A stretch of 64,000 bases of DNA, from contig JAHLLH010000005.1 in NCBI GenBank assembly GCA_020444265.1, forward strand, positions 124,001 to 188,000, written 5' to 3'. A model generated the notes under the pieces. It ran no database searches. It was not told the DNA's origin and worked only from the letters and a program-made list of their open reading frames with translations. The stretch's first letter is position 1. Each line of letters opens with the position of its first letter. Shown piece after piece: positions 1,955 through 34,382 of the stretch. The translations under genes and the position numbers were made by a program. Source of the DNA: a bacterium (GTDB lineage Bacteria > Electryoneota > Electryoneia > Electryoneales > Electryoneaceae).

Positions 1955-3682
1955 CTACTTCACCAGTAAGACCTTTCGGGTTTGGTTGATCATCCCTGCC
2001 TCCAATCGAATAAAGTAGATGCCAGATGGATTGCCGGCTGCATTCCATTGAACCTCGTGCATACCGGCTTGCTGTATCGTCTGTACGAGCACGGCAACTT
2101 CCCTGCCGAGCAGATCAACAACCGAGAGGTGAACATCATTAGTCGCGGGCAGTTCATATCGAATAAGGGTTGACGAGTTAAATGGGTTTGGCCAAGCTGA
2201 CTCAAGAGAGACAGCAGCAGGTAGTTCGTATGGATGCTCAGTCACAGATAACGACTGGGTAGAAGCGATCCGGATCAGGTAGGGGTGGGAAAAACTATCC
2301 TCATCCAGCCAGGTAGCCTGTGCGAGGATATCGTGGTTTGTTAGCAGGTCAGCAGAAAGCATATCCCATCCTTTTCGTTCGATGGGGAGTTCGAAGTGAT
2401 CATGATCTGACTCTCCCGTCTCAAAATCGAACGCCCACCACTGTAATAGCGGTAAGGGGAGCAATGCAGGGTAAAGCATGACCATAGTGTTTGAAGGGAT
2501 AACCATTGTCGAAGGGGGACGTAACAAATACTCGGGGGGGAAAGAAAATTCGGCATAGGTTTCTAGCGAATCATTCAAGTAAAAAAACTGTTGAATAAAA
2601 TCACGCCAAGAATGGGGATGCTCTGGAAACACCTCAAAATGAAGGCTAAACGCATAGAATTGTTCATCCTCTATAATTATTTGATAAATATCACCATTCA
2701 CATAATCAAGGGTACCAGCATATGAATTAATCCAGCCTGATTGATCAATGATCTCTCCAGATTGGTTTAATCGGATTACGGATGGAGTGCCTCCAGGAAA
2801 ACCGGTATTTGTTTCGCCGATGAGACAAAGAGTTGTCCCATCAGCAACCTCAACTGCATCAAGAAATTCTCTGCGATAATCATCCTCTTCCGTCAGATAG
2901 TCCCATAATAAAGCACCATCAGTTGAATAATGTCTAAGGATTGCAATCGTACCCGTTTCAGGCTCTCGTTCCGGGTTGCTGATCCCGAAGTAGACCCCAC
3001 CTGCCAGGTCTGGTCGAATGGTCGGCGAGTATTCCGGTTCAGCTTCAATGGAATCCGACCAGGCAACGCTTCCGTCCATCTCGAAACGAGCGACGAACAG
3101 CCCTTCCTCGAGGTCCAATCCGTAGTACCGTCCTGCCCCCACTACCGCACCGTCGCTCGTCCACGCAGTTTCTGTTACCAGATGCGGAAACTCGCCCCCA
3201 TCAACCTGAACCGGTACGACCTCGGGCTCGCCATCTCCATAAATACGTAGCAGCTTCAGCCCTTCGGGCAGACGATTCGAGCCAATGCTTGAGGTGTGTT
3301 GGACGAGAACCGTCAGAGTGTCATCAACTATTGAAGCACCGACAACACTCGCATCCAAACCTGCAACCGTATACTGGAAGGAATTCAGGATCATGCCATT
3401 GCGGGAAAGCTGACGCGCATCCACTACCTCCCGCAACTCATCGCTCCTCCGGCTGCCGATACACCAGGCAGAACCATCATCGAGAACGACGACACGTGAG
3501 GGCGTCCCCAGCGCGCTGCTGAACGCATCATGCTGGATCTGATACTCCCACTCGATCCACATTGAATCGACTTCTGCGACTGATTTGGACGGATCGGGCG
3601 TGTTTGCTTCTGTGGTTCCGAAAACAACAATCAAGCTAAGTATAAACAATGCGTTGCTTAACCACCGGAACGGATGGGTCAT
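1955..3682 (-). CDS. Secreted protein with Por/FlgD-like C-terminal sorting domain
   Basis: The protein has about 575 residues from the ATG at 3682, preferred over an in-frame start 45 bases upstream because GAGGA lies just before it and a signal peptide begins there (LSNALFILSLIVVFG). The central 400 residues contain repeated short beta-strand motifs (W-x-G, DGS, RIYGDGEPE), like a beta-propeller, with no catalytic motif I recognise. The last ~80 residues form a typical T9SS-type sorting domain: AWPNPFNSSTLIRYELP, LLGREVAVL, NPSGIYFIRLEAG, ending KVLLVK. It is probably exported, cleaved and attached by the PorU/PorV system encoded at 20-25 kb. It resembles the upstream gene in layout, so the pair is likely a tandem duplication. 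The middle is visibly AT-richer than its surroundings (about 2560-2900). Confidence 0.8.
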   Translation of the reverse strand: MTHPFRWLSNALFILSLIVVFGTTEANTPDPSKSVAEVDSMWIEWEYQIQHDAFSSALGTPSRVVVLDDGSAWCIGSRRSDELREVVDARQLSRNGMILNSFQYTVAGLDASVVGASIVDDTLTVLVQHTSSIGSNRLPEGLKLLRIYGDGEPEVVPVQVDGGEFPHLVTETAWTSDGAVVGAGRYYGLDLEEGLFVARFEMDGSVAWSDSIEAEPEYSPTIRPDLAGGVYFGISNPEREPETGTIAILRHYSTDGALLWDYLTEEDDYRREFLDAVEVADGTTLCLIGETNTGFPGGTPSVIRLNQSGEIIDQSGWINSYAGTLDYVNGDIYQIIIEDEQFYAFSLHFEVFPEHPHSWRDFIQQFFYLNDSLETYAEFSFPPEYLLRPPSTMVIPSNTMVMLYPALLPLPLLQWWAFDFETGESDHDHFELPIERKGWDMLSADLLTNHDILAQATWLDEDSFSHPYLIRIASTQSLSVTEHPYELPAAVSLESAWPNPFNSSTLIRYELPATNDVHLSVVDLLGREVAVLVQTIQQAGMHEVQWNAAGNPSGIYFIRLEAGMINQTRKVLLVK

Positions 3683-3734
3683 ATCGTCCTCTGCGTTCAG
3701 ATCAAGGGTGCCGATCAGTTTCCGCAATAGAAAT

Positions 3735-5465
3735 CTATTTCAATAGAACGACCTTGCTGGTCATCTGACGCACTTCCCCTTGCAACCGAATAAAATATAT
3801 TCCAGAAGGTACATCCGAAGCGTTCCATTGAATCCTGTGATTCCCAGCGGGTTTCATCCCCTGATCGAGCTGCGTCACCTCTCGACCCATCAGGTCATAC
3901 ACGGAAACTCGGATGTTTTCACCCTGATCAAGCTTGTAGCTGATCGTCGTGCTCGCATTGAAGGGATTGGGCCGCGCCTTGATCAGGGACCAGGCGACGG
4001 GTTTGGGGTCAGCGGCAACATTATTCGTGGTCCCTCTCGCACTTCGGATGGGGGCGAGGCTGGCAACCCAGGCCTGATGATAGCCATTCATTCGCTCCAC
4101 GTACTCGCCCTGTAGAATCCAATAGCCCTCATTTGTCCAGGCTTGCTTCTGTAGAACTGGCTTGATGTTCTCAATACCCTCAAGTGGCAACAAATTCAGT
4201 TCACCTTCCTCCCCAATCGCCTGCACAGTCCGTATCACCAGGTAAGCTGGATTATCTTGGAGTGGTTCAGCCACCCACGCCTGAAGAATGGCCCCACTTG
4301 GATCCATCGTCAGCATCGATGCATGAGTGCCCGGGGTGGCATATCGTCCCGACCAGAGTGGGCTGTACTGATCGTCCATGACGTAAAGATCGAGATGGTG
4401 ATTCCCACGACTTTGATCTTCGCCCAGAATGTCGACCGCTACAACGATTTGTTCCTCCTCCTGCCACCCCTGTGTGAAGATTTTTGCATCAAGGATGGAC
4501 TGGGCATCTTCTGGCTCGAACATGGTTTCATTGACCAGGTTACCCCGACTATCCACTTCGACCAACGTCAGGGACACAGCTTCCGTATTCAGCACCTGTG
4601 ACTGGTAAAGCAGGAGTGTGTTATCTCCCCAACGTTTCACGTCAAAAAGCTGCTGTACTGGGGATGCTTCGCCAATCTGTACAGACCAGCCGATGGACCC
4701 CTCGGCCTTTATGCGGAAAAGATCAATCTGTGAGCCAGGCGAAGCCTGGTGATCGGGCCCCAAGATGAGGAGGACCTCATTGTCCTCAGTAGGAAACAGG
4801 TATCGCTTTCTATGTTGCCCCCCATTTATTTCCATGTAATAGGTGTGCTGGTACCAGAGCTCCCAATCCATTTTTTTGCAAATGACATACGTACCACCGT
4901 TTCCATCTCTAGTGAACCAACCTGTACTTACGATACTTGTGTCAGGAGTGACGATGGATGCTTCAGCGAAAACCTGATGTCCTTCATCCGGGCTGAAGAA
5001 ACTCCCGCTCCCATACCAGGGATGTTCAAGACCAAAGAGACAGAGTCGTTGCCGATAAAAAACAGTCCCGCTCTCATTGTACATGACCTTCTGCCGGATA
5101 TAGTACATGTCACCCATCATCCGGACCGGCGCTCTCGGTTCGGTGTAGCCGGGGCGTTCAACGGACCAAAGCTGCTCCAGGAACTCTCCCGCACCATCAA
5201 TGAGAAGGATCCCGGTTTTCCAGGTATAATTACTGTCCCGTTGCTGACCAATGACCCAAAGCAGCTCCACCCCCTCGTCGAAAACCAGGGGTTGAACCTG
5301 ATTGGTCAAATCGAGTGGTGTCGGCAGCGCCCAGCGTAACACAACAGAATCGACGTCCGCGGTTTGACGCTGGACTATGCCAGCATCTGCTGCATGGAGC
5401 AACGTTGCTGAAAGCAGGATAAGCAGAATAGCGGAAAGGAGAGCACGTCCAGTTCCTAAATTCAT
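3735..5465 (-). CDS. Secreted protein with Por/FlgD-like C-terminal sorting domain (paralogue of the next gene)
   Basis: A 576-residue protein with an N-terminal signal peptide (ALLSAILLILLSATLLHA), a long beta-rich body of unknown function and a sorting domain at the end (ARPNPFNASTTISYKL, DLMGREVTQL, VPSGIYFIRLQGE, SKVVLLK). Early motifs such as ADVDSVVLRW and LLWVIGQQRD parallel AEVDSMWIEW and AWCIGSRRSD in the downstream protein, supporting a tandem paralogous pair. The two genes are 52 bases apart on the same strand and probably co-transcribed. A TATAAT box lies about 30 bases upstream of the start. Confidence 0.8.
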   Translation of the reverse strand: MNLGTGRALLSAILLILLSATLLHAADAGIVQRQTADVDSVVLRWALPTPLDLTNQVQPLVFDEGVELLWVIGQQRDSNYTWKTGILLIDGAGEFLEQLWSVERPGYTEPRAPVRMMGDMYYIRQKVMYNESGTVFYRQRLCLFGLEHPWYGSGSFFSPDEGHQVFAEASIVTPDTSIVSTGWFTRDGNGGTYVICKKMDWELWYQHTYYMEINGGQHRKRYLFPTEDNEVLLILGPDHQASPGSQIDLFRIKAEGSIGWSVQIGEASPVQQLFDVKRWGDNTLLLYQSQVLNTEAVSLTLVEVDSRGNLVNETMFEPEDAQSILDAKIFTQGWQEEEQIVVAVDILGEDQSRGNHHLDLYVMDDQYSPLWSGRYATPGTHASMLTMDPSGAILQAWVAEPLQDNPAYLVIRTVQAIGEEGELNLLPLEGIENIKPVLQKQAWTNEGYWILQGEYVERMNGYHQAWVASLAPIRSARGTTNNVAADPKPVAWSLIKARPNPFNASTTISYKLDQGENIRVSVYDLMGREVTQLDQGMKPAGNHRIQWNASDVPSGIYFIRLQGEVRQMTSKVVLLK

Positions 5466-20050: not shown

Positions 20051-23000
20051 ATGCGAACGATTCGAATCCTGCATGTGCTGTTCAGCCTACTGCTGACCGC
20101 TCTGTTTGCTTCCGTTGTCCAAGCGGAAGTCCAAGTCGTTGCGGACACCCCCTCCAATCTCATCCTTGAAGTCAATTTTCAGGACTGGACCTCGGTCACG
20201 TTCGACGATGGCGTATTGCATATGCCGACCAATGCCGGGGTGGATGATCGTACGGGTGGGGAACTCACTCCCTTTGTGGCACGTCTAATCGGCCTGCCCT
20301 CGAACCAGCGCCCACGAGTCACCATCGAGTCTGTCCAGTGGGGAGAACGTCTCGTTGGACGTGCTCCGCAGGGTACCGAACCGACGGACCACCTTGAAGT
20401 AGACCATCTCTCTGGCCAGGGACCAGTTGTGGTCGGTGAGCCCTTCGAATGGCGCCGCCACTGGGTCAGCTACCTCTATCTCGTACCTGTCCAGCAGGAT
20501 GGGAACGGTGTCCGTCCCTTGAAAAGCATGCGTCTGCGTGTCGACTACGGTTCTCCAACTGAGACCGTCCTCAGCAGCAGCGACCCCCTAGTCCACGCCG
20601 CCTTGGCCAACCCTAGTGCTGCGGGACGGTGGCAGCGAAGCCTCCGTACGATCAAGCAAAACTCGAAGGTTGCCTCAACCGACGAGTGGCCCAGCGGGAC
20701 CATGATCCGTATCGAGCTGGACCGTGAAGGGATGTACGAGTTGACCCCGGAAGATCTCGACCTCTGGGGCATCGACCTGTCGGGGCTGGATCCACGGAAC
20801 TTCCGCATCTTCAACAATGGCGGCCAGCCGTTGCCTGAGGATTTTGACGATCCTCGGGACACCGAACTGCGTGAAAACGCAATCATTGTGACGGGTGAGG
20901 AGGATGGTTCTTTCGATGACGAAGACCGGATCATCTTTTTCGGTCGCGCAGTGAATACCTGGATCCCCGGCTCACCCCCGGGCGAGTACCGTCACCGTAT
21001 CAACGCCTTCACACGGGTTAACGTTTACTGGCTCAACATTGCGGATGATGGCTCGCAGGGGCTGCGAATGGCAGATCTTAATGTGGACGAGAGTCCGACC
21101 TACAACACAGACCGTGCCCGCACACGCATGTTCATCGACAACGAATCCGTCATTTTTAACAACTCCTCGCACATTGAATCGGGGAAGGATTGGTACGCTC
21201 GGGAACTCTTCAGCGGGGAGATCTATGCGGAAAGTTTCAACCTCTCTTCGCCCCTTGCGGATGAGTCCGCCACTCTATGGGTCTCTCTGAAAACCCTCGG
21301 TGGGGCGAACAACGCGACCATCCTGGTGAATGGCACCCCGGTCGATGTGTTCAACTCCTCGGTGACCACCTGGTCCATCGAGCTGGAGCCCGGTGTGCTG
21401 CGTGATGGCAACAACACGTTCACCTTCCAGATGAACAATGGCCATCTCTACTTCAACTGGTTCGAAATCCACTACGAGCGCAGGCTGAATGCGTCCAACG
21501 GCAGAATCGACTTCGACACTCTGCCCGAAGATGGAATTGCCCAGGTTACCCTTACAGGATTGGAAGAGCCGTGGGTCTTCGATATCGAAGATTTCGACGA
21601 GGTGAGCTATACCCGCGAGATCCCCTTCAAGGTCGAGACTCAGGTAAACTCACCACGCCGACATATCGCGGTGAGCACCGACAACTTCCTCACCCCGATT
21701 CGTATGCGCGTCGATGGCATCGGCCAACCGGACTATCCCAACGGACTCCGTGACACCAGCCTGGAAGCTGATTACATCATCCTTACACACGAAGATTTCT
21801 ACGACAACACGGCGCGTCTGGAAACGTTTATTGAACAGCGTGACACGATTGAAGTGCTGCGTGTGGATGTGGCAGATGTTTACCGTGAGTTCGCATGGGG
21901 CATGTTCGATCCGACAGCGATCCGTGACTTCCTCGCCTTCACCCATGACAATTGGGCGGTTATGCCGCAGAGTGTATTGCTGGTCGGGGATGGGGATTAC
22001 GACTACCGCAACATTATTTCCAATTCGGATGACAACTGGATTCCACCCTACGAAGAGAACACCGATTGCCGTGACGATTGGTACACCACCTTCGATAATG
22101 GTGTTGCCCAGATGGCGCTGGGAAGGTTGACGATTCAGACCAACCGCGCCCTCGATACCTACATTGACAAGCTGATCGCTTATGAGGCCGATACCGATCC
22201 AGGTCCATGGCGCTCAAGAATGGTGCTGTTGGCTGATGATGAGTATGTGGATGTCGGCCCGACGAGCTGGGATACGGCTCACATGGAGCAGGCGGAAGAT
22301 TTTTCGCGCAATTATGCTCCCGACTACCTCAACATCAACAAAATTTATATCGGCACTTACCCTACCAGCTACGACCCTGTGTCCGGTGGACGGCGCAAAC
22401 CTGCGGCAAATCGTGACCTGATCGAACAGATCAACGCGGGCGCCTTGCTGGTCAGCTTCATCGGGCATGGCAATGCCCACACGTGGACGCACGAATCGGT
22501 ATTGACCGATTCGCGTGACGGTTCCCTGATTAACAGCGGTACACGCAACCCGATCTACATCGCGGCGACCTGTTCATGGGGCCATTTTGACCGTCCTGAC
22601 AACCAGTCGCATCCCGAATTGCTGCTCGAACAGTCAGGTGGTGCGATCGGAGTGATCGCGGCAACGCGCAAGACAAACGGCTTCAACAACTTTGACTTCG
22701 CGCTCGCCTTTTACAGCCGTCTGTTTGACCGGGTCAACAATTTCCCGCTTGGTACTAGTCTTTATCTGGCCAAAATGGATGCACCGCTCGGTTCGAATCG
22801 TTACTACCACTGCCTGGGCGAACCTCACCTGACCCCGGCACTGCCGAGGTTGGACATGAATGTCGAGGAGGTCAATCCGGATAGCCTTCAGGCATTGGCG
22901 CATGCCTCGGTCCGTGGCACGGTCCAGATTCCAAGCCTCGCCGCTGCGAACAAACAGCAAGGCGACAATTTCCGCACTGAGCGAGGCATCAGCGCCACAA

Positions 23001-23971
23001 CAGCTGCAGATTTTGATGGCGAGACCCTGGTTACGGTCTACGACAGCGATGATACCCTGAGCTACACCTTTACCAACCGCAACGGCACGACAGGCAGCAC
23101 CCTTGACTATTATGTTAAGGGCGGCACCCTCTTCCGTGGCAATGTGACAACAACAGGCGGTGAGTTTACAGCCAATTTCATGGTCCCACGTGACGTCAAA
23201 TTCGGGTCTAATGCCGGGTCCATCCAGATGTACTGCTACAACGACGAGCAGGATGGTGTCGGCACGATGCGTGACCTGGCTATATCCGTCAACAGTGCTG
23301 ACTTGAATGATGCCACTCCGCCGGAGCTACGGATTCGCTTTGATCATGAAAACTGGATGAGCGGCGATTTGACCAGTTCACAGCCAACCCTCTACCTCGA
23401 TGTCTTCGATACCAATGGGGTCAATCTGACTGGTGAAATCGGTCATGATATCCGTGCTATCATTGATGGCACGCGTGAGCTGGTCCTCACCGAAGGATTC
23501 ATCTACAACCGTGACAGCTTTACACGTGGGACGGCGGAACAGCCCATCTATGACCTCGAACCGGGCCGTCACCGTATCGAAGCATGGGCGTGGGACAATG
23601 CCAACAACTTCACCCGAACCGAAGCCAGCTTTGTCGTGGTTGATCCCAACGATGAGGTTCAGCTCGAGAACGTGCTGAACTTCCCGAATCCCTTTAACGA
23701 CAGAACATCCTTCACCTTCGAGCTCTCGACGGAGGCGGAGGTGAGCATACGCATCTTCACCGCGAGTGGACGACTGATCCAGGAGATCGGTCCTGTCGCG
23801 GCGAGCGCCGGGTTCAATTACCCGGGTGGCACCAACAGCCATCTCGAATGGGATGGGCGGGATCGTTTCGGAGATCCCATCGCAAACGGTGTTTATCTGT
23901 ACAAAATCAAGGCTAAAGGAGCCTCCGGACAGACGGACGAGGTTCTTGGCAAGCTGTTACGTATTCGCTAA
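20051..23971 (+). CDS. porU: Type IX secretion sortase PorU (C25 gingipain-family cysteine peptidase)
   Basis: A 1306-residue outer-surface sortase that removes the C-terminal sorting domain of T9SS cargo and attaches the cargo to the surface. A signal peptide (LHVLFSLLLTALFASVVQA) is followed by a long beta-rich region. The C25 catalytic domain has His806 in SFIGHGNAHTWTHES and Cys841 in AATCSWGHFDRPDNQSHPE, both in the order and context of PorU and gingipains. The C-terminus is itself an Ig-like FlgD-type domain (FPNPFNDRTSFTFELS ... GDPIANGVYLYKIKAKG). porV follows 147 bases later. Confidence 0.9.
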   Translation: MRTIRILHVLFSLLLTALFASVVQAEVQVVADTPSNLILEVNFQDWTSVTFDDGVLHMPTNAGVDDRTGGELTPFVARLIGLPSNQRPRVTIESVQWGERLVGRAPQGTEPTDHLEVDHLSGQGPVVVGEPFEWRRHWVSYLYLVPVQQDGNGVRPLKSMRLRVDYGSPTETVLSSSDPLVHAALANPSAAGRWQRSLRTIKQNSKVASTDEWPSGTMIRIELDREGMYELTPEDLDLWGIDLSGLDPRNFRIFNNGGQPLPEDFDDPRDTELRENAIIVTGEEDGSFDDEDRIIFFGRAVNTWIPGSPPGEYRHRINAFTRVNVYWLNIADDGSQGLRMADLNVDESPTYNTDRARTRMFIDNESVIFNNSSHIESGKDWYARELFSGEIYAESFNLSSPLADESATLWVSLKTLGGANNATILVNGTPVDVFNSSVTTWSIELEPGVLRDGNNTFTFQMNNGHLYFNWFEIHYERRLNASNGRIDFDTLPEDGIAQVTLTGLEEPWVFDIEDFDEVSYTREIPFKVETQVNSPRRHIAVSTDNFLTPIRMRVDGIGQPDYPNGLRDTSLEADYIILTHEDFYDNTARLETFIEQRDTIEVLRVDVADVYREFAWGMFDPTAIRDFLAFTHDNWAVMPQSVLLVGDGDYDYRNIISNSDDNWIPPYEENTDCRDDWYTTFDNGVAQMALGRLTIQTNRALDTYIDKLIAYEADTDPGPWRSRMVLLADDEYVDVGPTSWDTAHMEQAEDFSRNYAPDYLNINKIYIGTYPTSYDPVSGGRRKPAANRDLIEQINAGALLVSFIGHGNAHTWTHESVLTDSRDGSLINSGTRNPIYIAATCSWGHFDRPDNQSHPELLLEQSGGAIGVIAATRKTNGFNNFDFALAFYSRLFDRVNNFPLGTSLYLAKMDAPLGSNRYYHCLGEPHLTPALPRLDMNVEEVNPDSLQALAHASVRGTVQIPSLAAANKQQGDNFRTERGISATTAADFDGETLVTVYDSDDTLSYTFTNRNGTTGSTLDYYVKGGTLFRGNVTTTGGEFTANFMVPRDVKFGSNAGSIQMYCYNDEQDGVGTMRDLAISVNSADLNDATPPELRIRFDHENWMSGDLTSSQPTLYLDVFDTNGVNLTGEIGHDIRAIIDGTRELVLTEGFIYNRDSFTRGTAEQPIYDLEPGRHRIEAWAWDNANNFTRTEASFVVVDPNDEVQLENVLNFPNPFNDRTSFTFELSTEAEVSIRIFTASGRLIQEIGPVAASAGFNYPGGTNSHLEWDGRDRFGDPIANGVYLYKIKAKGASGQTDEVLGKLLRIR

Positions 23972-24118
23972 GTTGACCGTTTCGCAGTCTCATGAGCAGT
24001 TGCGGGATGAGAAATGGTCCTCGAACCGGGCGGGTGAACATTGATCTGCCTGGCACAAACAGGACGACAAATGGGCGATACAATCGTCCAGCAGGTGATT
24101 ACATCAGGTAGGAAAGCG

Positions 24119-25189
24119 ATGATCGGCACTCTTCACCACCGACTGACACGGACAGCAATCCTTGCGGGTATCGCACTGTTGCTGATCCTCGGCATGGGTA
24201 CTCCGGCAAAGGCGGTAAGCGTCTCCCAGTCCGGCGTACTGTTTCTTAAGATCAGCCCCGGCGCACGACCCGGTGGTATGGGCGAAGCATTTGTCGCACT
24301 CGCCGATGATGCGTCCTCCACCTGGTGGAACCCGGCAGGGCTGGCATATGTCAAGAATGATGAGTTGACTCTGATGCACGCCAACTGGCTGCCTCAGTTC
24401 AAGTTCAACGACCTCTATTATGACTACCTGAGCTACGTGCACAAGGTGGATGACTGGGGAACGTTCGGCGGAAACATCATCTTCCTGAACCTGGGTGAAA
24501 GCCAGCGTACCGATGAAACAGGTACCGCTCTCGGCACCTTCTCTTCTTATGAGATGGCTGCCACTGGTTCCTACGGTTCCCAGATGACCCCGAACACCGC
24601 CCTCGGTGTCAACATGCGGTTCATCTTCAGCCACCTCTCTGATCGTGGCGCTGGTCAGGAACGTGGTTCCGGTGAAGCGACCAGTGTTGGTGTGGACATC
24701 GGCTGGCTGTGGGACACTCCAATTCGCAAGCTGCGTCTAGGCGCGAACCTGTCGAACATGGGCCCGAAGGTTGCCTACATCGACCAGGCTCAGGCTGATC
24801 CGCTGCCGACCAACTTGAAGTTCGGTTTCGCCTATCATCTCGTTGACAGCCCTTACAACACCCTGACTCTCGTGGGTGATGTGGACAAGGAGCTGGTTCG
24901 TGTCTACGAGGATGGCAAATCCGATCCCTTCTACCTCGCCTTGCTTACCGCATGGGGAGATGGATCCTTCAACACCCTGATTTATCACACAGGTATGGAA
25001 TACTGGTACAGCGACCTCGTCGCTCTTCGTTTCGGCTACTGGAACGATGATCTTGGCAAGGTGAAGCCGATCACCTTCGGCGCCAGCCTGAAATACTCCC
25101 TGTATCGCTTTGACTTTTCCTATGTCGCCGCCGGTGAAGGGCACCCGTTGCAGGATACGATGCGCTTCAGCTTGTCCATCGGCTTCTAA
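24119..25189 (+). CDS. porV: Type IX secretion outer membrane protein PorV (LptO family)
   Basis: A 356-residue outer membrane beta-barrel that, in known systems, receives cargo from the translocon and delivers it to PorU. After a signal peptide (AILAGIALLLILGMGTPAKA) comes the family signature FLKISPGARPGGMGEAFVAL and ADDASSTWWNPAGLAYV. Beta-strand repeats fill the rest and the protein ends in the aromatic motif FSLSIGF. The ATG at 24119 is preferred over upstream in-frame starts because AGGAAAG lies before it and the signal peptide then starts normally. It directly follows porU. Confidence 0.9.
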   Translation: MIGTLHHRLTRTAILAGIALLLILGMGTPAKAVSVSQSGVLFLKISPGARPGGMGEAFVALADDASSTWWNPAGLAYVKNDELTLMHANWLPQFKFNDLYYDYLSYVHKVDDWGTFGGNIIFLNLGESQRTDETGTALGTFSSYEMAATGSYGSQMTPNTALGVNMRFIFSHLSDRGAGQERGSGEATSVGVDIGWLWDTPIRKLRLGANLSNMGPKVAYIDQAQADPLPTNLKFGFAYHLVDSPYNTLTLVGDVDKELVRVYEDGKSDPFYLALLTAWGDGSFNTLIYHTGMEYWYSDLVALRFGYWNDDLGKVKPITFGASLKYSLYRFDFSYVAAGEGHPLQDTMRFSLSIGF

Positions 25190-25215
25190 TAGTACCACCA
25201 GTGGGTTTATGGGTC

Positions 25216-25243
25216 GGCAGCCCCACCCCCGCAGGGGGCTGCC
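25216..25243 (+). terminator. Hairpin downstream of porV
   Basis: GGCAGCCCC pairs with GGGGCTGCC around a short C-rich loop. There is no T-run after it, so it may attenuate or stabilise the message rather than terminate it fully; the next gene starts 62 bases later in the same direction. Confidence 0.5.
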
Positions 25244-25305
25244 TTACCCGATAGCCAGATCCCGGGCGATGTTTCCCCGGGGACGCGAACGATGACAGAA
25301 GGCTC

Positions 25306-28300
25306 ATGAGACAACGAATCCCGACGTACTTCCTGCCGGTTCTGCTGGTAGCGATTCTATTTGGTATCTCCATCTTGCCTGCTCTGGCCGACGCTCGTGC
25401 ACTACGCACGACGCCCTTCGCCACTCGCAGCATGATGGAGACCCGTCCGCTACTCTCGCAGAACGATATTTTCCAGGCACCCGCTCTGCCGGATACCATG
25501 CGTGTCCTGGCCATCCGTGTCGAGTTCGCTGAAGACACCCTGATGACAACCACAGGGGACGGCAGCTTCTTCTACGAGTTACCGGAAGATATCGAAGCCG
25601 AGGATTGGCTGGTCGATCCACCCCCGCATGATTCGAGCTATTTCGCCGATCAGCTGCTCGCCATGCGGAATTATTACAGCACATTCAGCCGCGGCCAGCT
25701 TACCCTGACCGGGCATTACAATGATGGCCCGACATCTGGCGGGGATATCTACCCACGTGGCGAACAGGCCGCCTACCGCATCGATTACCCCATCTGGCAT
25801 GTCAACTATGGCGATGGGGACAATGACCGTCTCAACGAAACCTTGACCCAGCTCTTTGTCGATGCCTGGAGTGCGGCCAACGCGGATACGGCGATTAACA
25901 TCGCCCATTACGATCTCTTCCTCATCTTCCACGCGGGCGCAGGCAACGAGTTTGATACCGGGTACGATACCACGCCCCACGATATCCCATCGGTTGTCAT
26001 CGGTCCGACTGACCTCGCTGATTTTGTCGGCCTGCCGGGCGGGGTTCCGATGCGGAATGGCAACATCATGCGTGGTGCTATCCTGCCGGAAACCCAGCGT
26101 CAGGAGGGTGTGGATGTCGGGATGCTCGGTACAGTTTGTGCTCAGGTCGGTTTCCTGCTCGGCATGCCACACATGTACAACACGGAAAATGGCGACCCGG
26201 GCATCGGGCTGCTCGGCCTGATGGACCGTGGTTTCGGTGGCTACTTCGGCCTTGCTCCAACTCCGCCCAGCGCCTGGATGCGTGCCTACATGGGCTGGGA
26301 CCCGGTCACAACGATCACCGAAGGCGAAATTCGGGTCGGTGCCCTGCATCTGCCCGACCAGGCCTTTGTTGATGATCCAGAGTTGCACCGTCTTGTGCGT
26401 GTCCCGATCAACGAGAACGAATACTACCTGGTCGAGTCACGCCGACGAGACCCGGATGACGATTCGCTCACCGTCGCGATTGACCGTGATGGCGACCGTT
26501 TGTTGCTCCACGATGACTACACCATCGAACTCGACCCGGCGAACACGGGCGAGATGACAGCACCGGTGATCATCGAAGACCATGACTTCGACCTGCCCGC
26601 GAGCGGCATGCTGATCTGGCACATCGACGAGTCCATGATCCGTGACAACATCGCCAATGATCAGATTCAAAACGATCGCAACCGACGTGGTGTGGACCTC
26701 GAAGAAGCGGACGGTACCGAAGACATCGGGGAGGAATACGAGTTCCTGCAAGCGGGCGACGGTGCCGAATATGGTGTCCGTGAGGACGCCTGGTACCGCA
26801 ATAACGAGCTCTGGAGCGAATCGAACAACGTCACCAATGTCCGCTTCGGTTCCGACACTTATCCGAACACAGCTGCCAACAGCGGTGGAGCAACCCACAT
26901 CGAGTTCACCAACTTCAGCGATATCGCTGATACGATGACCGCCGAAGTGATGAACACATGGAAAATCCCGGGTTTCCCGGTGGATTTGCCCTGGGTGGGT
27001 GATTCGCGAGTGTCGTTGCTGACCGGTCAAGTGGATGGGGATGGTGTAGAAGACATCCTGATTTACGGGCAGGACGGAAAGGTGGTCGCGTTCGCTGCCG
27101 ATGGAACCCCCATTGGGAACCCGAATGACATGCTGAACCTTGCGGATACGCCTTTCCACATGAATGTCGTGTATCGTCACGCCTGGGATATCGATGGTGA
27201 TGATTCCAAGTTTTACGTGCAGGTTGAAAACGGGTTGCTCGAATTGACCTACCTTGAAGGGGTTGGGGTTTTAGGCACACGCCGGATCGAAACCGATGCC
27301 ATCCATCCGATCGACTTGGTCGTACTGGATGCCTCCCTCTCCCCGAACAACCCGGTGGACAGCAGTTTCCCGCACATCGCCGCCCTCTACCATGAGAACG
27401 GCCCGGGCTTGAAGTTCGTCCTGTTCACCGATCTGGATGCCAACCTCACCCCGGCCATCGACCTCGAGCAGTACGATGAACGCTTCGGGTATGCCCAGGA
27501 AGGCTGGATTGTACCGCAAATCGATCCGCTGCTTGGAGTCTATGCTTTTATCGTTTCCGATAATGGTGCTGCAGTCGGGATCGGGTATGACGGTACAAAT
27601 CCGATCTTACTTGATGTCGGATCGGTGGATGGACTGGAACGGCACGAATTACTCGAGACACCCGTCTCGTTCGGAGAACCTCGAGTGGTCGCCAGCCTGA
27701 CCACAAACCGACGGATCGTCCGTTGGTCTCTCGGATCAGGCGCATCGACATCAGACAGCCATCCGAGTGTCTCGGATGGACCTGAAATCGAAGACCTCGA
27801 AGAGCACATCTACAATCTTTTCCCGCTTGATGTGGATGGCAATGGCATCGCAGATGTCAGCGGCATCTACCAGAGCAAGATCATGGGCTTTTACCGTGGC
27901 GGGGTCCTGGCGGAGGGAACACCGATTCAATTCCCGCCCCATTTCGGATACACCTTCGGTGAACCCGTGGTCATCAGCGCACCAGGTGGTCGTCAGTCGA
28001 GGATGCTGATTCCATCGTGGACGGATGATGCTAACGAGTTCACGGTTTCGGGTATTTCGATTCCCTCTGGCAGAGCATTGCTTGGTTTCCCGCTCGACTT
28101 CGGCTATGAGCCCGGTACGTTACCGGAGCTATACCTCGCCGGAGATGGGACTTTATTGATCCTTTCCCGTTCAACTAGTGACACTCCCGCTCGCCTTATT
28201 GCGTACACCATCCCGATGCAGGACGATGAACGTGTCGCGTGGGGTGGCCCAAACGGCGATAACGGGCACGGACGTTTCTGGCGTCAGTGGTCCACGGCTG

Positions 28301-28590
28301 TATCCAACACGACAACGCTGGACCTCTCCAATGCCTATGCCTGGCCGAACCCGGCTTACGACAAGGTGGTCCATCTGCGCTTCGAGGCAACTCGTGATGG
28401 AAGGGCAAACCTCAAGGTTTACGATCTCGTCGGTCGTCTGATCGATGAAAATGATCACACGTTCAGTGGGACCGCCGAGGGGGCGCAGGAAATCGCTGTC
28501 GATGTTTCGAACTATCCGTCCGGGGTGTATGTCGCTCGTCTCGAGGCGGGTGGTCAGAAGAAGATGATTCGCTTTGCGGTGGTGCAGTAG
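25306..28590 (+). CDS. M6-like secreted protein with destroyed zinc motif and C-terminal sorting domain
   Basis: A 1094-residue secreted protein: signal peptide (FLPVLLVAILFGISILPALA), an M6 (immune-inhibitor-A-like) metalloprotease-type domain in the first ~450 residues, a large beta-rich region and a sorting domain (AWPNPAYDKVVHLRF ... YPSGVYVARLEAG). The M6 landmarks GIGLLGLMDRG and PSAWMRAYMGW remain. At the zinc site, AQVGF (residues 279-283) stands where HEFGH is expected, so both histidines and the glutamate are lost. It should be catalytically dead. Coming straight after porU and porV, it may be a major cargo or a structural surface protein. Confidence 0.82.
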   Translation: MRQRIPTYFLPVLLVAILFGISILPALADARALRTTPFATRSMMETRPLLSQNDIFQAPALPDTMRVLAIRVEFAEDTLMTTTGDGSFFYELPEDIEAEDWLVDPPPHDSSYFADQLLAMRNYYSTFSRGQLTLTGHYNDGPTSGGDIYPRGEQAAYRIDYPIWHVNYGDGDNDRLNETLTQLFVDAWSAANADTAINIAHYDLFLIFHAGAGNEFDTGYDTTPHDIPSVVIGPTDLADFVGLPGGVPMRNGNIMRGAILPETQRQEGVDVGMLGTVCAQVGFLLGMPHMYNTENGDPGIGLLGLMDRGFGGYFGLAPTPPSAWMRAYMGWDPVTTITEGEIRVGALHLPDQAFVDDPELHRLVRVPINENEYYLVESRRRDPDDDSLTVAIDRDGDRLLLHDDYTIELDPANTGEMTAPVIIEDHDFDLPASGMLIWHIDESMIRDNIANDQIQNDRNRRGVDLEEADGTEDIGEEYEFLQAGDGAEYGVREDAWYRNNELWSESNNVTNVRFGSDTYPNTAANSGGATHIEFTNFSDIADTMTAEVMNTWKIPGFPVDLPWVGDSRVSLLTGQVDGDGVEDILIYGQDGKVVAFAADGTPIGNPNDMLNLADTPFHMNVVYRHAWDIDGDDSKFYVQVENGLLELTYLEGVGVLGTRRIETDAIHPIDLVVLDASLSPNNPVDSSFPHIAALYHENGPGLKFVLFTDLDANLTPAIDLEQYDERFGYAQEGWIVPQIDPLLGVYAFIVSDNGAAVGIGYDGTNPILLDVGSVDGLERHELLETPVSFGEPRVVASLTTNRRIVRWSLGSGASTSDSHPSVSDGPEIEDLEEHIYNLFPLDVDGNGIADVSGIYQSKIMGFYRGGVLAEGTPIQFPPHFGYTFGEPVVISAPGGRQSRMLIPSWTDDANEFTVSGISIPSGRALLGFPLDFGYEPGTLPELYLAGDGTLLILSRSTSDTPARLIAYTIPMQDDERVAWGGPNGDNGHGRFWRQWSTAVSNTTTLDLSNAYAWPNPAYDKVVHLRFEATRDGRANLKVYDLVGRLIDENDHTFSGTAEGAQEIAVDVSNYPSGVYVARLEAGGQKKMIRFAVVQ

Positions 28591-31500
28591 ATGATGAATG
28601 CGATACGACACATGGACCCGAACCTGCGCCGAACGCTGGTTGGATTTGCCGCGGTGATCGCCTGTATCCTGGTCTTCGCCTGGGTGGCCTTCAGCCAACC
28701 CCTCGATGCGAACCACCCTGAATTGGCGTGGATGACGATGGAGACCGATCACTTCATCATCCATTACACCGATGCTTCGCAACGTACCGCGCTGGTCATC
28801 GCCAAAATTGCCGAGGAAATCCATCCTTCGGTGACCAAAACCTACGGCTATGAACCTGACACCAAGTTCCATTTCATCGTCAAGGATACGGACGATTACG
28901 CCAACGGCGCGGCGTACTACTACAACAACAAGATGTTGATCTGGTCCACGGCACTGGATTACGATCTGCGCGGCACGAAAAACTGGCTGCGGATGGTGAT
29001 TACGCATGAGTACACGCATATCATCCAGCTCGGTGCCGCACGTAAGCTACCCCGTCAGGTACCCGCGATATATTTGCAGGTGCTCGGTTACGAGGATGAG
29101 AAACGGCCCGACGTGCTTTATGGCTACCCGAACGTGCTCGCCTCCTATCCCTTCGCGATGACGGTTATACCGATGTGGTTTGCCGAGGGTGTTGCACAGG
29201 CGAATGCGTACAGCGTCGCCGACAGCTTCAAGTACGACTTTTGGGACAGCCACCGTGACATGCAGCTCCGTATGCGTGCACTAAATGATGGCTTGCTTCC
29301 ACTCAATGAGATGGAAGTGTTCGGCAAGAACAGCCTCGGCAGTGAGGGTGTTTACAACCATGGCTACAGCCTGGTGCAGTTCATCGCACGTCGCTGGGGG
29401 TCACAGGCTCTGTCGGATCTGACACATGAAATGCAAAGCCTGAAGGTTTTAAACTTCAACCAGGCGACTGAGAATGTTCTGGGAGTCACCGGTGACAGCC
29501 TCTGGACAATGTGGGCCGATTCACTGAAGACCCAGTACCTGACGGACACCGAAGGGATTCGAGGACACGAGGTCAAGGGGGATACCTTCGCGGCGGGTGG
29601 TTATGCAAACTTTCATGCCGAGTACACACCGGATGGAAAAGATGTCTACTTCCTTTCCAACGTTGGATTCGACTACCTCAGCCTGCAGAATCTTTACAGG
29701 CAACCTGCGGACACCACCGAGGATCCGGAAAAGATTCTCGATCTCATCGAAGGCCCCTTCGACATCAGTCCGGACGGCACGTGGCTGATCTACAGTAAAA
29801 TTGTCCGTCAAAAGAACGAGAGCTACTACGCCGACCTCTACCTGCGAAACCTTGAGAAGGAAAAAGAGGTTCGTCTGACCAGGTCGGCACGTGCAATGGA
29901 GCCCGCCTTCAGCCCGGACATGAGCCACCTGCTCTTTGTTGTCAATCATGACGGCACAAAAGACATCGCGACCATGGAATTGCCTCCGGAAGAAGAGTGG
30001 CTCGACTTGAAACCGCTTTCCGTGGACAAAATCGAACGGCTGACCGACTATGGGGATGGCACCCGTGCCTTCCGTCCTCAGTTCACCCCCGATGGCAGTG
30101 CCATCCTTTACGCCATCAGCCGCCGGTTCGGTCGTGACATCGAAATGATGGACCCGGACGGCAGCAACAGCCGTGTTATCGTCGGTGGCGCGGCAGATCA
30201 ACGTGACCCGGTGATGAGCCCGGATGGCGAGTGGATCTACTACTCGGATGACATCACCGGCATCTTCAACATCTATCGTTACAAGGTTTCGGACGGTAGC
30301 ACGGAACAAGTGACCAACGTTTTGGGCGGAGCTTTCCAGCCTGCCATCTCGCCCGATGCGTCCGAGATGATTTACAGCGAGTGGACGCTGGACGGATATC
30401 AGCTCAGCAAGATGATGCTTGAAAACAAAGCACCGCAGAATCTGCTCGCCTACCAGCGCGACTACCTCTCGGTCATTCCGGATGCCAGCTACGATGATAC
30501 CGAGCTGGACACCATCGCTTCCCGTCCCTACCGGCCCATCTTTGAACAGCTCTTTTTCGTGCCGAGGATCGCTTGGGATTATGGCACCTTTAAACCGGGT
30601 GTCTACGTTTATTCCAGCGACTTTCTCGAGAAGCTGATGTTGTTCAGCGGATTCGACTACAACACACGCGGCGAGTTTGATGCTGTCGCTATGCTGGACT
30701 TTAAAGCCTTGCGCCCCACTATCTTCGCCCAGGGGTATTACCTCAAACGGATCGACGATGAACGGTTCGAGGACAACTTCAGGATCATCGGGGAACGTGA
30801 GGTCGAGGATCCTGATGGCGGCACCCACCTGGAACCGATTTACGGCGACTACGGTGTCGATTACCGTTTCCACCTGATGCTCTTCGACCTGGGCGCCCGG
30901 TTCCGTCTAGCAACCCCACTCGAAGTGGAGCTTCGGACCAGCTTGAGCAGGTACGATGCCTTCCTGCATTATGACGACAACACCGACTTCCAGTACACCT
31001 ATTTTACAGGCCGTTTTTACCAGGCCGAATTCCATTACGATGGCATGCCCCTGCAGTTGAAGGGCAATGTGCATCCTCGTATGGGGACAGAAGCGAACCT
31101 GACGGTTGCTTTCGAGGACAACGAGTTCATCGAAGGTTTCGAGGTCAATGCGGATGCCCTGACCTTGCAGGAAGTCTATACGCCCTACAAATATTGGCGT
31201 CTCGAAGGGGATGTCGCCCATTGGATGAACCCGGTTGGGGACCTTGTACTCCAACCACGTCTGCGTGGCGGCTACCTCGACAAGCAGGTCGATCCCTTTA
31301 TGCACCTCTATGCGGGCGGCTTGCACGGCATGCGCGGTTACAGCTTCTACAGTATGGGTGGAACACGGAAACTGATCGGATCGCTCGCTTTGCGTCACCC
31401 AATCTGGACCCCGGATCGCCCCCGTTTCGGCTGGATGCACTTTGATGGTCTCTACGGTGCTATCTTTGGAGATGTTGGCGATGCATGGCGAGAACGTGAG

Positions 31501-31737
31501 CTGATCGGCGACCAACTGAAGAAGGATGTTGGCTTCGAGCTGCGCGCCAAGTTTTATTCCTGGTATGGCTACCCGACTGCGGTGACCTTCTCTGCCGCAC
31601 GTGGCCTCGACCGGATCTCGGTCACTGAAAACGATATTACCACGGTCTATGACCCCACCTGGCGGTATTACCTGACCGTACTGTTTGACTTTGAAACGAT
31701 CTTTCCCGCACGCGGGATGAACCGGAGGATTCCATGA
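28591..31737 (+). CDS. Gluzincin-type HExxH protease domain fused to a PD40/TolB-like propeller and a C-terminal barrel-like domain
   Basis: A 1048-residue envelope protein starting immediately after the previous stop. An N-terminal hydrophobic segment (FAAVIACILVFAWVAF) is followed by a peptidase-MA-type domain with HEYTH (His139-His143) and a downstream glutamate in MWFAEG (Glu199), the gluzincin pattern. Residues ~330-620 contain PD40/WD40-like repeats (FDISPDGTWLIYSK, MEPAFSPDMSHLLFV, AFRPQFTPDGSAILYA, DPVMSPDGEWIYYS, FQPAISPDASEMIYS), as in TolB. The rest is aromatic, strand-rich and resembles an outer membrane barrel of the surface-antigen type, with GLHGMRGYSFYSMGG. Start could also be ATG 28594 or 28612. 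Confidence 0.82.
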   Translation: MMNAIRHMDPNLRRTLVGFAAVIACILVFAWVAFSQPLDANHPELAWMTMETDHFIIHYTDASQRTALVIAKIAEEIHPSVTKTYGYEPDTKFHFIVKDTDDYANGAAYYYNNKMLIWSTALDYDLRGTKNWLRMVITHEYTHIIQLGAARKLPRQVPAIYLQVLGYEDEKRPDVLYGYPNVLASYPFAMTVIPMWFAEGVAQANAYSVADSFKYDFWDSHRDMQLRMRALNDGLLPLNEMEVFGKNSLGSEGVYNHGYSLVQFIARRWGSQALSDLTHEMQSLKVLNFNQATENVLGVTGDSLWTMWADSLKTQYLTDTEGIRGHEVKGDTFAAGGYANFHAEYTPDGKDVYFLSNVGFDYLSLQNLYRQPADTTEDPEKILDLIEGPFDISPDGTWLIYSKIVRQKNESYYADLYLRNLEKEKEVRLTRSARAMEPAFSPDMSHLLFVVNHDGTKDIATMELPPEEEWLDLKPLSVDKIERLTDYGDGTRAFRPQFTPDGSAILYAISRRFGRDIEMMDPDGSNSRVIVGGAADQRDPVMSPDGEWIYYSDDITGIFNIYRYKVSDGSTEQVTNVLGGAFQPAISPDASEMIYSEWTLDGYQLSKMMLENKAPQNLLAYQRDYLSVIPDASYDDTELDTIASRPYRPIFEQLFFVPRIAWDYGTFKPGVYVYSSDFLEKLMLFSGFDYNTRGEFDAVAMLDFKALRPTIFAQGYYLKRIDDERFEDNFRIIGEREVEDPDGGTHLEPIYGDYGVDYRFHLMLFDLGARFRLATPLEVELRTSLSRYDAFLHYDDNTDFQYTYFTGRFYQAEFHYDGMPLQLKGNVHPRMGTEANLTVAFEDNEFIEGFEVNADALTLQEVYTPYKYWRLEGDVAHWMNPVGDLVLQPRLRGGYLDKQVDPFMHLYAGGLHGMRGYSFYSMGGTRKLIGSLALRHPIWTPDRPRFGWMHFDGLYGAIFGDVGDAWRERELIGDQLKKDVGFELRAKFYSWYGYPTAVTFSAARGLDRISVTENDITTVYDPTWRYYLTVLFDFETIFPARGMNRRIP

Positions 31738-32726
31738 AGCGTATAACAGCCATTAGCCTGGCGTTCATCCTGACCCTCGCAGGCGCCGTGCCCATGCTTG
31801 CCATGGGTGAAACCACTGGTGATTCAGGCATCTCTCCCCTCTTTGTCAAGTCGGATGAGTCGAGCCTGAAATTGAACAGCGATGAACTCGACAGCTGGAA
31901 CAGCAGCACCGCCCTGCCTACCTCACGCAATGCGTTCGAGATTGGCCAGAAGATGAACTTCGCCCTGCAGGCGGAGGATGATGGATCGGTGACTGCCCAG
32001 TCCGGAACGTCCGGCGAGCGTAAGAATCCAGGCCGTGCCCTGCTGCTCTCCGCCATTTTCCCCGGTGCAGGTGAGCTCTATGCGGGATCGACCCTGAAGG
32101 CCGCTCTCTTCTTTGCAATTGAGGTCGGTTGCTGGTATGGTGCTATATCCTATGCCCAGCGTGGCAACGACCAGACGGACAAATTCGAGAAGTTTGCGGA
32201 TGCCAGCTGGACCGAGTCTGAGTACCGTGACATCGAGTTCCAATTCGCGAATGACCCCAATGCTTCGAACTCTTTCAGTGCTGACTATGGTCCTGATGCG
32301 ACCCGCGACACTTGGAATTCCTTGAGTTGGAACGAGAAGATTCGTTACCTGCCCGGCAACTTCACCCATGAGCTTCCCGACGATCGCAACCAGCAGTTCT
32401 ACGAGAATGTCGGCAAATACTTGACCCAATTCGGGTTTGGTTGGAACGACGGTGTGGGTGATGATCCGGAGACCGTGTACAAGTGGGATGGCCAGAGCCG
32501 TGATGCAGCGCGTTATGTCATCATGCGTGAAGACGCCAACAACCTGCTTGGCTTCAGCTCGACCTTCTTCTCGGTCATCATGGTCAACCACGTCGTCTCA
32601 GCACTGGATGCAGGCTTCACCGTCCGCAACCAGAACCGAAAGCTGATGACGGTTGAGCCGGATGTTTCAGCGATCTGGCACAATTCGGAACCAGTGACTG
32701 TAGCTGGTCTGCGGGTGAGGTTCTAA
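31734..32726 (+). CDS. Envelope protein, DUF5683-like (first of a paralogous pair)
   Basis: A 330-residue protein with a signal peptide (ISLAFILTLAGAVPMLA). The central segment KNPGRALLLSAIFPGAGELYAGSTLKAALFF followed by a hydrophobic helix is the DUF5683-type membrane hairpin (quoted in part: FPGAGELYAG). A second hydrophobic stretch lies near the C-terminus (FFSVIMVNHVVSALDAG), and the protein ends LRVRF. It overlaps the protease-propeller gene by ATGA. The function is unknown. The next gene has the same layout, so they may form a hetero-oligomer. Confidence 0.7.
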   Translation: MKRITAISLAFILTLAGAVPMLAMGETTGDSGISPLFVKSDESSLKLNSDELDSWNSSTALPTSRNAFEIGQKMNFALQAEDDGSVTAQSGTSGERKNPGRALLLSAIFPGAGELYAGSTLKAALFFAIEVGCWYGAISYAQRGNDQTDKFEKFADASWTESEYRDIEFQFANDPNASNSFSADYGPDATRDTWNSLSWNEKIRYLPGNFTHELPDDRNQQFYENVGKYLTQFGFGWNDGVGDDPETVYKWDGQSRDAARYVIMREDANNLLGFSSTFFSVIMVNHVVSALDAGFTVRNQNRKLMTVEPDVSAIWHNSEPVTVAGLRVRF

Positions 32727-32727
32727 G

Positions 32728-33486
32728 GTGACATTCCCTCGTCAACGGCAGTCGTGGATCGCCTTCCTCTTTCTGGCCAGCCTGCTGCTTCTCCCTTCAC
32801 TTGCGAAGGCAGAGAAGCAGGCAGAGTTGCCGAAACCCTGGTGGGCGGTTGATGCTTCCTCCGGTAGCGCGGAAGCTCCTTCCTTCGGCATGAAAGCCGA
32901 GACGAAGGAGTACCTGGCGAAAACTCCGCCACAGGCCTTTCTGCGCAGCTTTGTCCTGCCTGGTTGGGGACAGCGGTATGCCGACCGCCCAGGGCGTGCC
33001 GCACTTTTCACTGGTGTCGAAATCAGCATCTGGACCGGCCTGATCTGGTCCAGCCAGGCTGCCCGGCAAGGCGAATCCGATTATCTTGCCTATGCACGTC
33101 AGCATGCGGGGGTGTCGGGAAGCTACGCGCATGAATACTATGTCAACATCGGTAACTTCCTGAATCAGGATGAGTACAACACAGCGAAAAGGTTGCAACG
33201 TTCCTACGATGAGCAATACCATGGTTCTGGTACCTGGTGGGAATGGGACAGTGATGACAACCGCAGAACGTTCAAGGATTTGCGAATCTCAGCGGATCGT
33301 CATGGTAACCGTGTCTACTATATGCTCGGTGGTCTGCTGCTGAACCGCGTCCTTTCCGCGATCGATGCTGGCCAGGGGTTGGCCAAACGTCAGAAGGAAT
33401 TACGCAAAAAGGGCGGTTTCGCGATTGGTTACGATCCTCGTGTGGATGGCCCATCCCTGACATGGAGTGGTAACCTGGGGTTCTGA
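32728..33486 (+). CDS. Envelope protein, DUF5683-like (second of a paralogous pair)
   Basis: A 252-residue protein starting with GTG one base after the previous stop. Signal peptide FLFLASLLLLPSLAKA, then RSFVLPGWGQRYADRPGRAAL and a hydrophobic helix, matching FPGAGELYAG of its neighbour. The C-terminal part has NRVLSAIDAGQG, equivalent to VVSALDAGF upstream, and ends SGNLGF. The conserved order suggests duplication followed by divergence. It ends in a TGATG overlap with the reductase gene. Confidence 0.7.
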   Translation: MTFPRQRQSWIAFLFLASLLLLPSLAKAEKQAELPKPWWAVDASSGSAEAPSFGMKAETKEYLAKTPPQAFLRSFVLPGWGQRYADRPGRAALFTGVEISIWTGLIWSSQAARQGESDYLAYARQHAGVSGSYAHEYYVNIGNFLNQDEYNTAKRLQRSYDEQYHGSGTWWEWDSDDNRRTFKDLRISADRHGNRVYYMLGGLLLNRVLSAIDAGQGLAKRQKELRKKGGFAIGYDPRVDGPSLTWSGNLGF

Positions 33487-34382
33487 TGAGCGGTATCCTC
33501 GTCACGGGGATCAGTGGATTCATCGGCGGGTACGTCTGGAGCATCCTCTCGAAGCGGGAGGATGTTTGGGGTGTGCACGGTGCCACAGGAAGCTTGCCGC
33601 TCAACCCCGACCGTCAGCTCGGCCTCGACCTCAGTAAACCCGCTGCCCTCGCAGGTCTGGTCGAGGACATCGCCCCTGATGTTATCCTCCATCTTGCTGC
33701 CCTTGCTCGCCCTGAAATCGTCCGCCGACACAGCCTGCTCGCCTGGAAAGTGAACAATGCGGCTACACGTGAACTGGCGGATGTTGCCGAAAAGCTCGGC
33801 AGCCGCTTGATCTTTACATCGACCGACCAGGTCTTCGACGGCTCCCATGGCAACTACCACGAGGGCGATCCACCCAGCCCGGTCAATGTGTACGGCGAAA
33901 CCAAGAAGGCGGCAGAACGGGCTGTCCTCAGTAAAGTCGAAAATGGTGTCGTGGTACGACTGAACAACACCTATGGCCCCCCACGGTTCCATGGCAGTTC
34001 CTTCTCCGAATGGATCTTGAACCGTGAGGGGAACAGCGAAACCATCACCCTCTTCCTCGACCAGTACCGAAGCCCACTCGATGTGGTAACGGCTGCCAAT
34101 GCCCTTGTCGAACTAATCGACCACAGCTTCACCGGCATCCTCCACCTGGGTGGAGCCAATCGTATCAACCGTGTGAATTTCGGCAAGATGTTGCTGCAGC
34201 ATGTGGGACGCGACCAGAACAGCATCCTCGAACTTCATTCGGCTAAGGTCGATCCCGAGGGGAAAATGCCCCTCGACACCAGTTTCGACATCACCCTAGC
34301 CAAGCAGATGCTGCGTACTCCCATTCCCAACCTGTTACAGGGGCTCGAGCAGGTCTATGGACCTGCACGTGCGAAGTACTGA
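33486..34382 (+). CDS. RmlD-like NAD(P)-dependent sugar reductase/epimerase (extended SDR)
   Basis: A 298-residue short-chain dehydrogenase of the dTDP-4-dehydrorhamnose reductase type. The nucleotide-binding TGISGFIGGY lies at the N-terminus, followed by LHLAALARPEIV, FTSTDQVFDGSHGNYHE and the catalytic YGETK. This supports rhamnose-type nucleotide-sugar synthesis, but no rmlA, rmlB or rmlC is nearby. Other substrates are possible. It overlaps the preceding envelope gene by TGATG and so probably belongs to the same transcript. Confidence 0.85.
   Translation: MSGILVTGISGFIGGYVWSILSKREDVWGVHGATGSLPLNPDRQLGLDLSKPAALAGLVEDIAPDVILHLAALARPEIVRRHSLLAWKVNNAATRELADVAEKLGSRLIFTSTDQVFDGSHGNYHEGDPPSPVNVYGETKKAAERAVLSKVENGVVVRLNNTYGPPRFHGSSFSEWILNREGNSETITLFLDQYRSPLDVVTAANALVELIDHSFTGILHLGGANRINRVNFGKMLLQHVGRDQNSILELHSAKVDPEGKMPLDTSFDITLAKQMLRTPIPNLLQGLEQVYGPARAKY

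Follow-up and report, generated by a model that had tools for sequence, protein, structure and literature searches.

The window, a 64,000-nucleotide stretch of DNA from a bacterium of the phylum Electryoneota, carries the genes for the T9SS sortase PorU and for a PorV-family outer-membrane barrel ahead of those for M6i, an M6-like protein that is catalytically dead and bears a T9SS sorting domain, for FUS, in which a HExxH metalloprotease, a TolB-like propeller and an Omp85 barrel are fused, and for two proteins of the DUF5683 type. This arrangement raises the question of whether M6i and FUS belong to the secretion system beside which they are encoded and, if so, what a dead protease and a live, barrel-tied one would do there. 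A sequence-only reading of the locus had proposed a dedicated display or maturation module, with the dead protease as its coat or scaffold and the fusion protein as an outer-membrane maturase.

Gene content and boundaries of the locus

Six co-directional open reading frames occupy positions 20051-33486, as that reading had described, and a seventh gene that it had missed adjoins them:

20051-23971, plus strand: PorU, T9SS sortase of the C25 family (NF033707, PF01364)
24041-25189, plus strand: PorV-family outer-membrane barrel (NF033709, PF19572)
25306-28590, plus strand: M6i (NF052323, TIGR04183, AlphaFold2 model)
28591-31737, plus strand: FUS (AlphaFold2 model, TolB and BamA structure matches, conserved catalytic residues)
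31734-32726, plus strand: DUFa, DUF5683-type protein with a signal peptide (PF18935)
32728-33486, plus strand: DUFb, DUF5683-type paralogue of DUFa (PF18935 below cut-off, hhalign)
33486-34382, plus strand: RmlD-like NAD-dependent sugar reductase (PF04321, E 8.1e-46)

PorU scores 694.8 bits against NF033707 (cut-off 420; PF01364, E 2.4e-70), and its aligned catalytic residues, His806 (codon 22466-22468) and Cys841 (codon 22571-22573), are kept in 62/62 sequences. The barrel protein passes the PorV/PorQ family model NF033709 (281.5 bits, cut-off 90; PF19572, E 7e-26) and falls below the cut-off of the PorV equivalog NF033710 (208.4 bits against 250). Its listed TTG start appears too early, the true start probably being the ATG at 24119, just ahead of the signal peptide. 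The two DUF5683-type proteins are indeed paralogues: DUFa scores 27.4 bits against PF18935, above the cut-off of 26.7, and DUFb on its own stays below it (21.6 bits), yet hhalign shows the two to be homologous (99.7%, E 1.6e-25).

The close packing claimed for the last four of the six genes is also confirmed. FUS begins at 28591, directly after the M6i stop (28590), the FUS stop (31737) and the DUFa start (31734) overlap by four bases, and a single base separates the DUFa stop (32726) from the DUFb start (32728). The RmlD-like gene begins on the last base of DUFb, and because of this one-base overlap the operon probably comprises at least seven genes. The reductase may be linked to a surface glycan anchor.

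The translocon lies outside the window, as had been supposed, with SprA/Sov encoded at C13:48241-54735 of the same genome (TIGR04189, above cut-off). Besides SprA and PorU, this genome holds at least 150 matches to the cargo sorting-domain model TIGR04183 (150 of 211 candidates scored), yet it is among 41 genomes, namely itself and 40 relatives, with no match to the GldM model TIGR03517. Two adjoining minus-strand genes of the window (1955-3727 and 3735-5465) have T9SS sorting-domain matches at their ends (C2:125967-126194 and 127747-127971 in the window's genome) and are probable cargo. Weaker FUS-like matches at C16:370179-371408 and C16:358826-359164 of this genome, in open frames of 1256 and 985 residues, are probably other propeller proteins.

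Predicted architecture of M6i and FUS

The domains of the two proteins, all encoded on the plus strand, are placed as follows:

about 25483-26961: M6-like pseudoprotease of M6i, preceded by a signal peptide; dead site at 26140-26154
about 26959-28230: propeller of M6i
about 28318-28581: seven-strand T9SS C-terminal sorting domain of M6i
about 28717-29565 (residues about 43-325): gluzincin metalloprotease of FUS, preceded by a signal peptide; HEYTH (H139, E140, H143) in codons 29005-29019 and E199 in codon 29185-29187
about 29566-30435 (residues about 330-614): TolB-like propeller of FUS
about 30547-31686 (residues about 653-1032): 16-strand Omp85 barrel of FUS

That M6i is a dead M6-like protein is borne out by its active site, which reads AQVGF in the window. 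The HExxH motif is intact in 0/101 homologues, the position of the catalytic Glu is never occupied by Glu in these 101 sequences, and the score against the active M6 metallopeptidase model TIGR03296 is 51.5 bits, below its cut-off of 110.8. The sorting domain is matched by TIGR04183 (31.7 bits), with a Por_Secre_tail domain at the C-terminus. In the AlphaFold2 model (pLDDT 79), most of the pseudoprotease exceeds 90 and resembles the immune inhibitor A fold (Z 21.6 over 389 residues, rmsd 4.7), the propeller is of low confidence, and the C-terminal domain has seven strands, its profile matching the C-terminus of PorZ (PDB 5m11). The family is already known as NCBIfam NF052323, the T9SS-dependent M6-like inactivated metalloproteases, which M6i resembles in architecture and in its lost active site. 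Many orthologues pass the cut-off of that model, those of Ignavibacteria among them (817.7 bits against 600), whereas M6i of the window remains under it (437.7 bits).

FUS, by contrast, retains the residues of a live protease. The gluzincin (MA clan) signature, HExxH with a third-ligand Glu, is invariant in 130/130 sequences from Electryoneota, other FCB groups and Bacteroidota, some Electryoneota genomes being counted twice, and the proposed succession of protease, propeller and barrel is upheld by the AlphaFold2 model (29 sequences, pLDDT 84.3). In this model the propeller matches TolB (Z 26.1, 243 residues) and the barrel matches Deinococcus BamA (Z 21.5, 312 residues, rmsd 4.2). The N-terminal protease domain gave no reported match in PDB searches with the model, and PF13485 reaches 32.4 bits in an Ignavibacteria relative, equal to its cut-off of 32.4. 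By manual strand count on the model, the L6 motif (V/I/M)RG(F/Y), MRGY in the window, follows strand 11 of 16, and the R/K915-G916-Y917 pattern is conserved among FUS sequences with some G to S changes. PF01103 gives only 18 bits, below its cut-off of 24. A Pfam scan found no POTRA domain, and the model passes from protease to propeller.

In the standard Omp85 topology, N-terminal domains lie on the periplasmic side. Because the predicted barrel has the 16-strand Omp85 arrangement, with L6 after strand 11, the FUS protease and propeller should face the periplasm unless they are actively moved out, which speaks for a putative periplasmic protease more than for the maturase of the sequence-only reading.

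That reading had also called the four genes after PorV non-standard components. This stands for the canonical T9SS, of which M6i, FUS and the DUF5683 proteins are no listed parts, but M6i belongs to a named family and Omp85 proteins with propellers were published in 2014 (Heinz and Lithgow, 2014, PMC4104836). Matched by description, FUS resembles the WD40-Omp85 subfamily of that paper, in which a propeller replaces POTRA and which was likened to a BamA-BamB fusion, in having a TolB-like propeller followed by an Omp85 barrel; it differs in the gluzincin ahead of the propeller, and neither a gluzincin nor the T9SS is mentioned in the portions of the paper drawn upon here. The "Metallo" Omp85 class described in the same source uses PF00149, another domain than the FUS gluzincin. 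PlpD and other type Vd patatin-Omp85 proteins, which consist of an N-terminal lipase, POTRA and an Omp85 barrel (PMC4104836), are like FUS in joining an N-terminal enzyme to such a barrel and unlike it in the nature of that enzyme and in carrying POTRA where FUS has a propeller. The barrel fold is also shared with BamA, without the N-terminal POTRA domains of the latter. In the open-access papers searched, no publication was found on the FUS protease domain, its link to the T9SS or the M6i-FUS pairing, and searches of these papers on PorU2, DUF5683, Electryoneota and the T9SS outside Bacteroidia returned nothing on this unit.

Gene order, joint inheritance and the distribution of GldM

The sequence-only reading had made the unity of the locus depend on its order in relatives, and this order proves to be widely kept. 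Linkage was counted in 80 named loci, taken as the best FUS matches, and in 20 Bacteroidota loci hand-picked from FUS carriers, so that all counts are rates among FUS carriers. In the Electryoneota loci with enough flank, M6i (30/30), PorV (28/28) and PorU (27/27) lie upstream of FUS without exception, and a DUF5683 gene (30/31), a second one (28/29) and, within 4 kb, RmlD (12/26) lie downstream. The other named FCB loci have M6i in 46/48, PorV in 38/40 and PorU in 22/39 upstream of FUS, and DUF5683 in 48/53, a second DUF5683 in 15/42 and RmlD in 8/39 downstream. For the 20 Bacteroidota loci, the corresponding counts are 14/20, 15/18 and 13/16, then 18/20, 0/19 and 0/17.

Most of the gene order is found again in KSB1/Calditrichota, Ignavibacteria, Kryptonia and many GTDB-Bacteroidota. 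KSB1/Calditrichota keep the order PorV-M6i-FUS-DUF5683; in L089, the one of their loci that was inspected closely, biotin carboxylase and gcvPA genes take the expected place of PorU. In Ignavibacteria, lptG, lptF and SprA come after the cluster; at L126:14075-23114 and similar loci, lptG and lptF are on the opposite strand, with SprA next. Between M6i and FUS, many Ignavibacteria loci also have a gene of ~220 residues with FlgD_ig and lipoprotein-like matches. In another FUS carrier (G129), a 305-residue TolB-like propeller gene directly follows SprA on the opposite strand (L264:16747-17664).

Random loss of the two genes, which would have spoken for coincidence, is not what a sample of 247 Bacteroidota genomes (the GTDB phylum of genome G103) displays. 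FUS and M6i are present in an identical set of 95 genomes, 152 have neither, and none has one alone. The cut-offs for presence (best E <1e-100 for FUS, E up to 1e-80 for M6i) were set after the matches had been viewed, and for FUS a wide gap separates the weakest accepted match (5e-154) from the strongest rejected one (1e-47). SprA is found in 190 of the 247 genomes, and all 95 FUS carriers are among these (Fisher p 6e-15, kinship ignored), which leaves FUS in 0/57 SprA-negative against 95/190 SprA-positive genomes at the match strength used; in the named FUS carriers tested, SprA is above cut-off in 44/44. Joint presence extends to unlinked genes: in at least G109, 862 kb separate M6i and FUS on the same contig, and in nine further genomes the two are on separate contigs, where an assembly effect is possible. 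On a SprA tree (MAFFT and FastTree; 67 tips, of which 60 were hand-picked and seven belong to the window's phylum and the neighbouring one, the tree being rooted by assumption on these seven), the presence or absence of the pair requires 10 changes; with the labels shuffled, about 23 are needed. The figure of 10 is approximate, several nodes being weakly supported, and since the states of M6i and FUS never differ, each change counts for both.

It is thus firm that the gene set is conserved and restricted to the T9SS, and that M6i and FUS are co-inherited within it. Because the pair is missing from 95 of the 190 SprA-bearing genomes, it is dispensable for the T9SS in general. A mirror-tree comparison gave no special M6i-FUS signal: the partial distance correlation, given the other proteins, is 0.23 between M6i and FUS and 0.54 and 0.50, respectively, between these and PorU, so that these values give direct M6i-FUS contact no preference over a contact with PorU. 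The locus shares PorU and PorV family members with the canonical T9SS attachment complex (PorU, PorV, PorQ, PorZ), and the M6i sorting-domain profile matches the PorZ C-terminus; a replacement of PorZ by M6i was considered and is ruled out, PorZ being present in 87/95 FUS genomes. With the catalytic pair of PorU also intact, neither protein has been replaced.

GldM, as detected by TIGR03517 above cut-off, occurs in 58/247 genomes, none of them FUS carriers (0/95). The 17 GldM-positive tips of the SprA tree form one clade, and the pattern therefore represents one evolutionary split rather than independent evidence of exclusion. Weak GldM matches in three FUS carriers (G125, G214 and G225) led to a divergent cluster in G214 (L259:5787-10636) that encodes a GldL-like protein of 242 residues, a GldM-like protein of 380, a protein of 311 residues that had no match and a GldK-like protein of 661. 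A three-row profile of this GldM relative matches G214 alone among 60 genomes and, like TIGR03517, detects no GldM in the window's genome. Given this cluster, a missing TIGR03517 match is no proof of a missing motor, and we do not claim that FUS genomes wholly lack a motor of the GldM type. One further genome, G106, has GldM above cut-off and no SprA match at E 1e-60, possibly because its assembly is incomplete. That M6i and FUS are an ancestral part of the T9SS core which was lost in the one clade with canonical GldM, where the T9SS has been studied, and that the systems which kept it rely on a motor and ring that are different or have escaped recognition, is a tentative and rather doubtful suggestion.

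Proposed role of the M6i-FUS pair

M6i and FUS likely work together at the outer membrane, and we give a probability of about 0.5 to the reading that they are a functional pair dedicated to the T9SS, with the FUS protease facing the periplasm. The locus would then be the sortase/attachment operon of the type of T9SS found outside the GldM-bearing clade, with M6i and FUS as an obligate pair of accessory components besides PorU and PorV. M6i would cross the outer membrane by means of its C-terminal sorting domain and serve, without catalysis, as a partner or docking protein rather than as a protease, possibly within a physical complex. FUS would be held in the outer membrane by its POTRA-less Omp85 barrel, with the live metalloprotease and the propeller taking the place of POTRA and hanging in the periplasm. 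The pair would most likely assemble, inspect or clear outer-membrane components of secretion, candidates being SprA, PorV or M6i in transit, although we are far less sure of the exact substrate. This proposal is made by analogy with E. coli, where BepA and BamB perform such a service for ordinary barrels. BepA is a periplasmic M48 protease that acts on LptD, and FUS would share with it the idea of a HExxH protease at outer-membrane barrels, although BepA has neither barrel nor propeller and FUS has both. Of the module first proposed, the dedicated T9SS-linked unit is supported, and the coat or scaffold role of the dead protease is not.

The predicted periplasmic position of the protease favours assembly or quality control over maturation at the surface. 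In the latter case, FUS would resemble type Vd proteins, its protease and propeller being moved to the surface to trim cargo or sorting domains beside PorU, with M6i as a scaffold. The invariant active site, the neighbouring sortase and shuttle genes and the precedent of PlpD, whose N-terminal enzyme reaches the surface by way of its Omp85 barrel (PMC4104836), are consistent with this, but the intact His and Cys of PorU make a second sortase unnecessary, the modelled topology puts the N-terminus of FUS in the periplasm, and PlpD-type proteins carry the POTRA that is not seen in FUS; we regard surface maturation as doubtful. It is unlikely that FUS is instead a dedicated anchor or translocator, its barrel holding or passing M6i in a two-partner or PorP-type manner and its protease trimming M6i. 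Such a role would account for the perfect joint presence and absence of the two, unlinked cases included, but M6i has a route already in its type A seven-strand sorting domain, PorV and SprA, and the linkage to PorU, PorV and DUF5683 would be left unexplained.

Two further explanations deny any dedicated function in the T9SS. The BamA-like barrel and TolB-like propeller, together with the lptF and lptG genes close to the cluster in Ignavibacteria, could mark FUS as a general factor of outer-membrane biogenesis that merely adjoins T9SS genes, but the lack of any FUS match, at the strength used, in the 57 SprA-negative Bacteroidota genomes of the sample makes this very improbable. That the gene order is coincidental can practically be dismissed: no supporting point was found, and the order is not due to chance since different families of the phylum share it and it reaches into several others.

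Most of what has been learned about the T9SS comes from Flavobacterium and Porphyromonas. Should these fall in the GldM-bearing clade, a pair that is kept, always together, in half of the sampled SprA-bearing Bacteroidota genomes and in several phyla besides would be missing from the systems studied best. With a live protease joined to an outer-membrane barrel and a conserved dead protease as its partner, the pair would offer a clear, testable handle on how the outer-membrane parts of the T9SS are built or policed.
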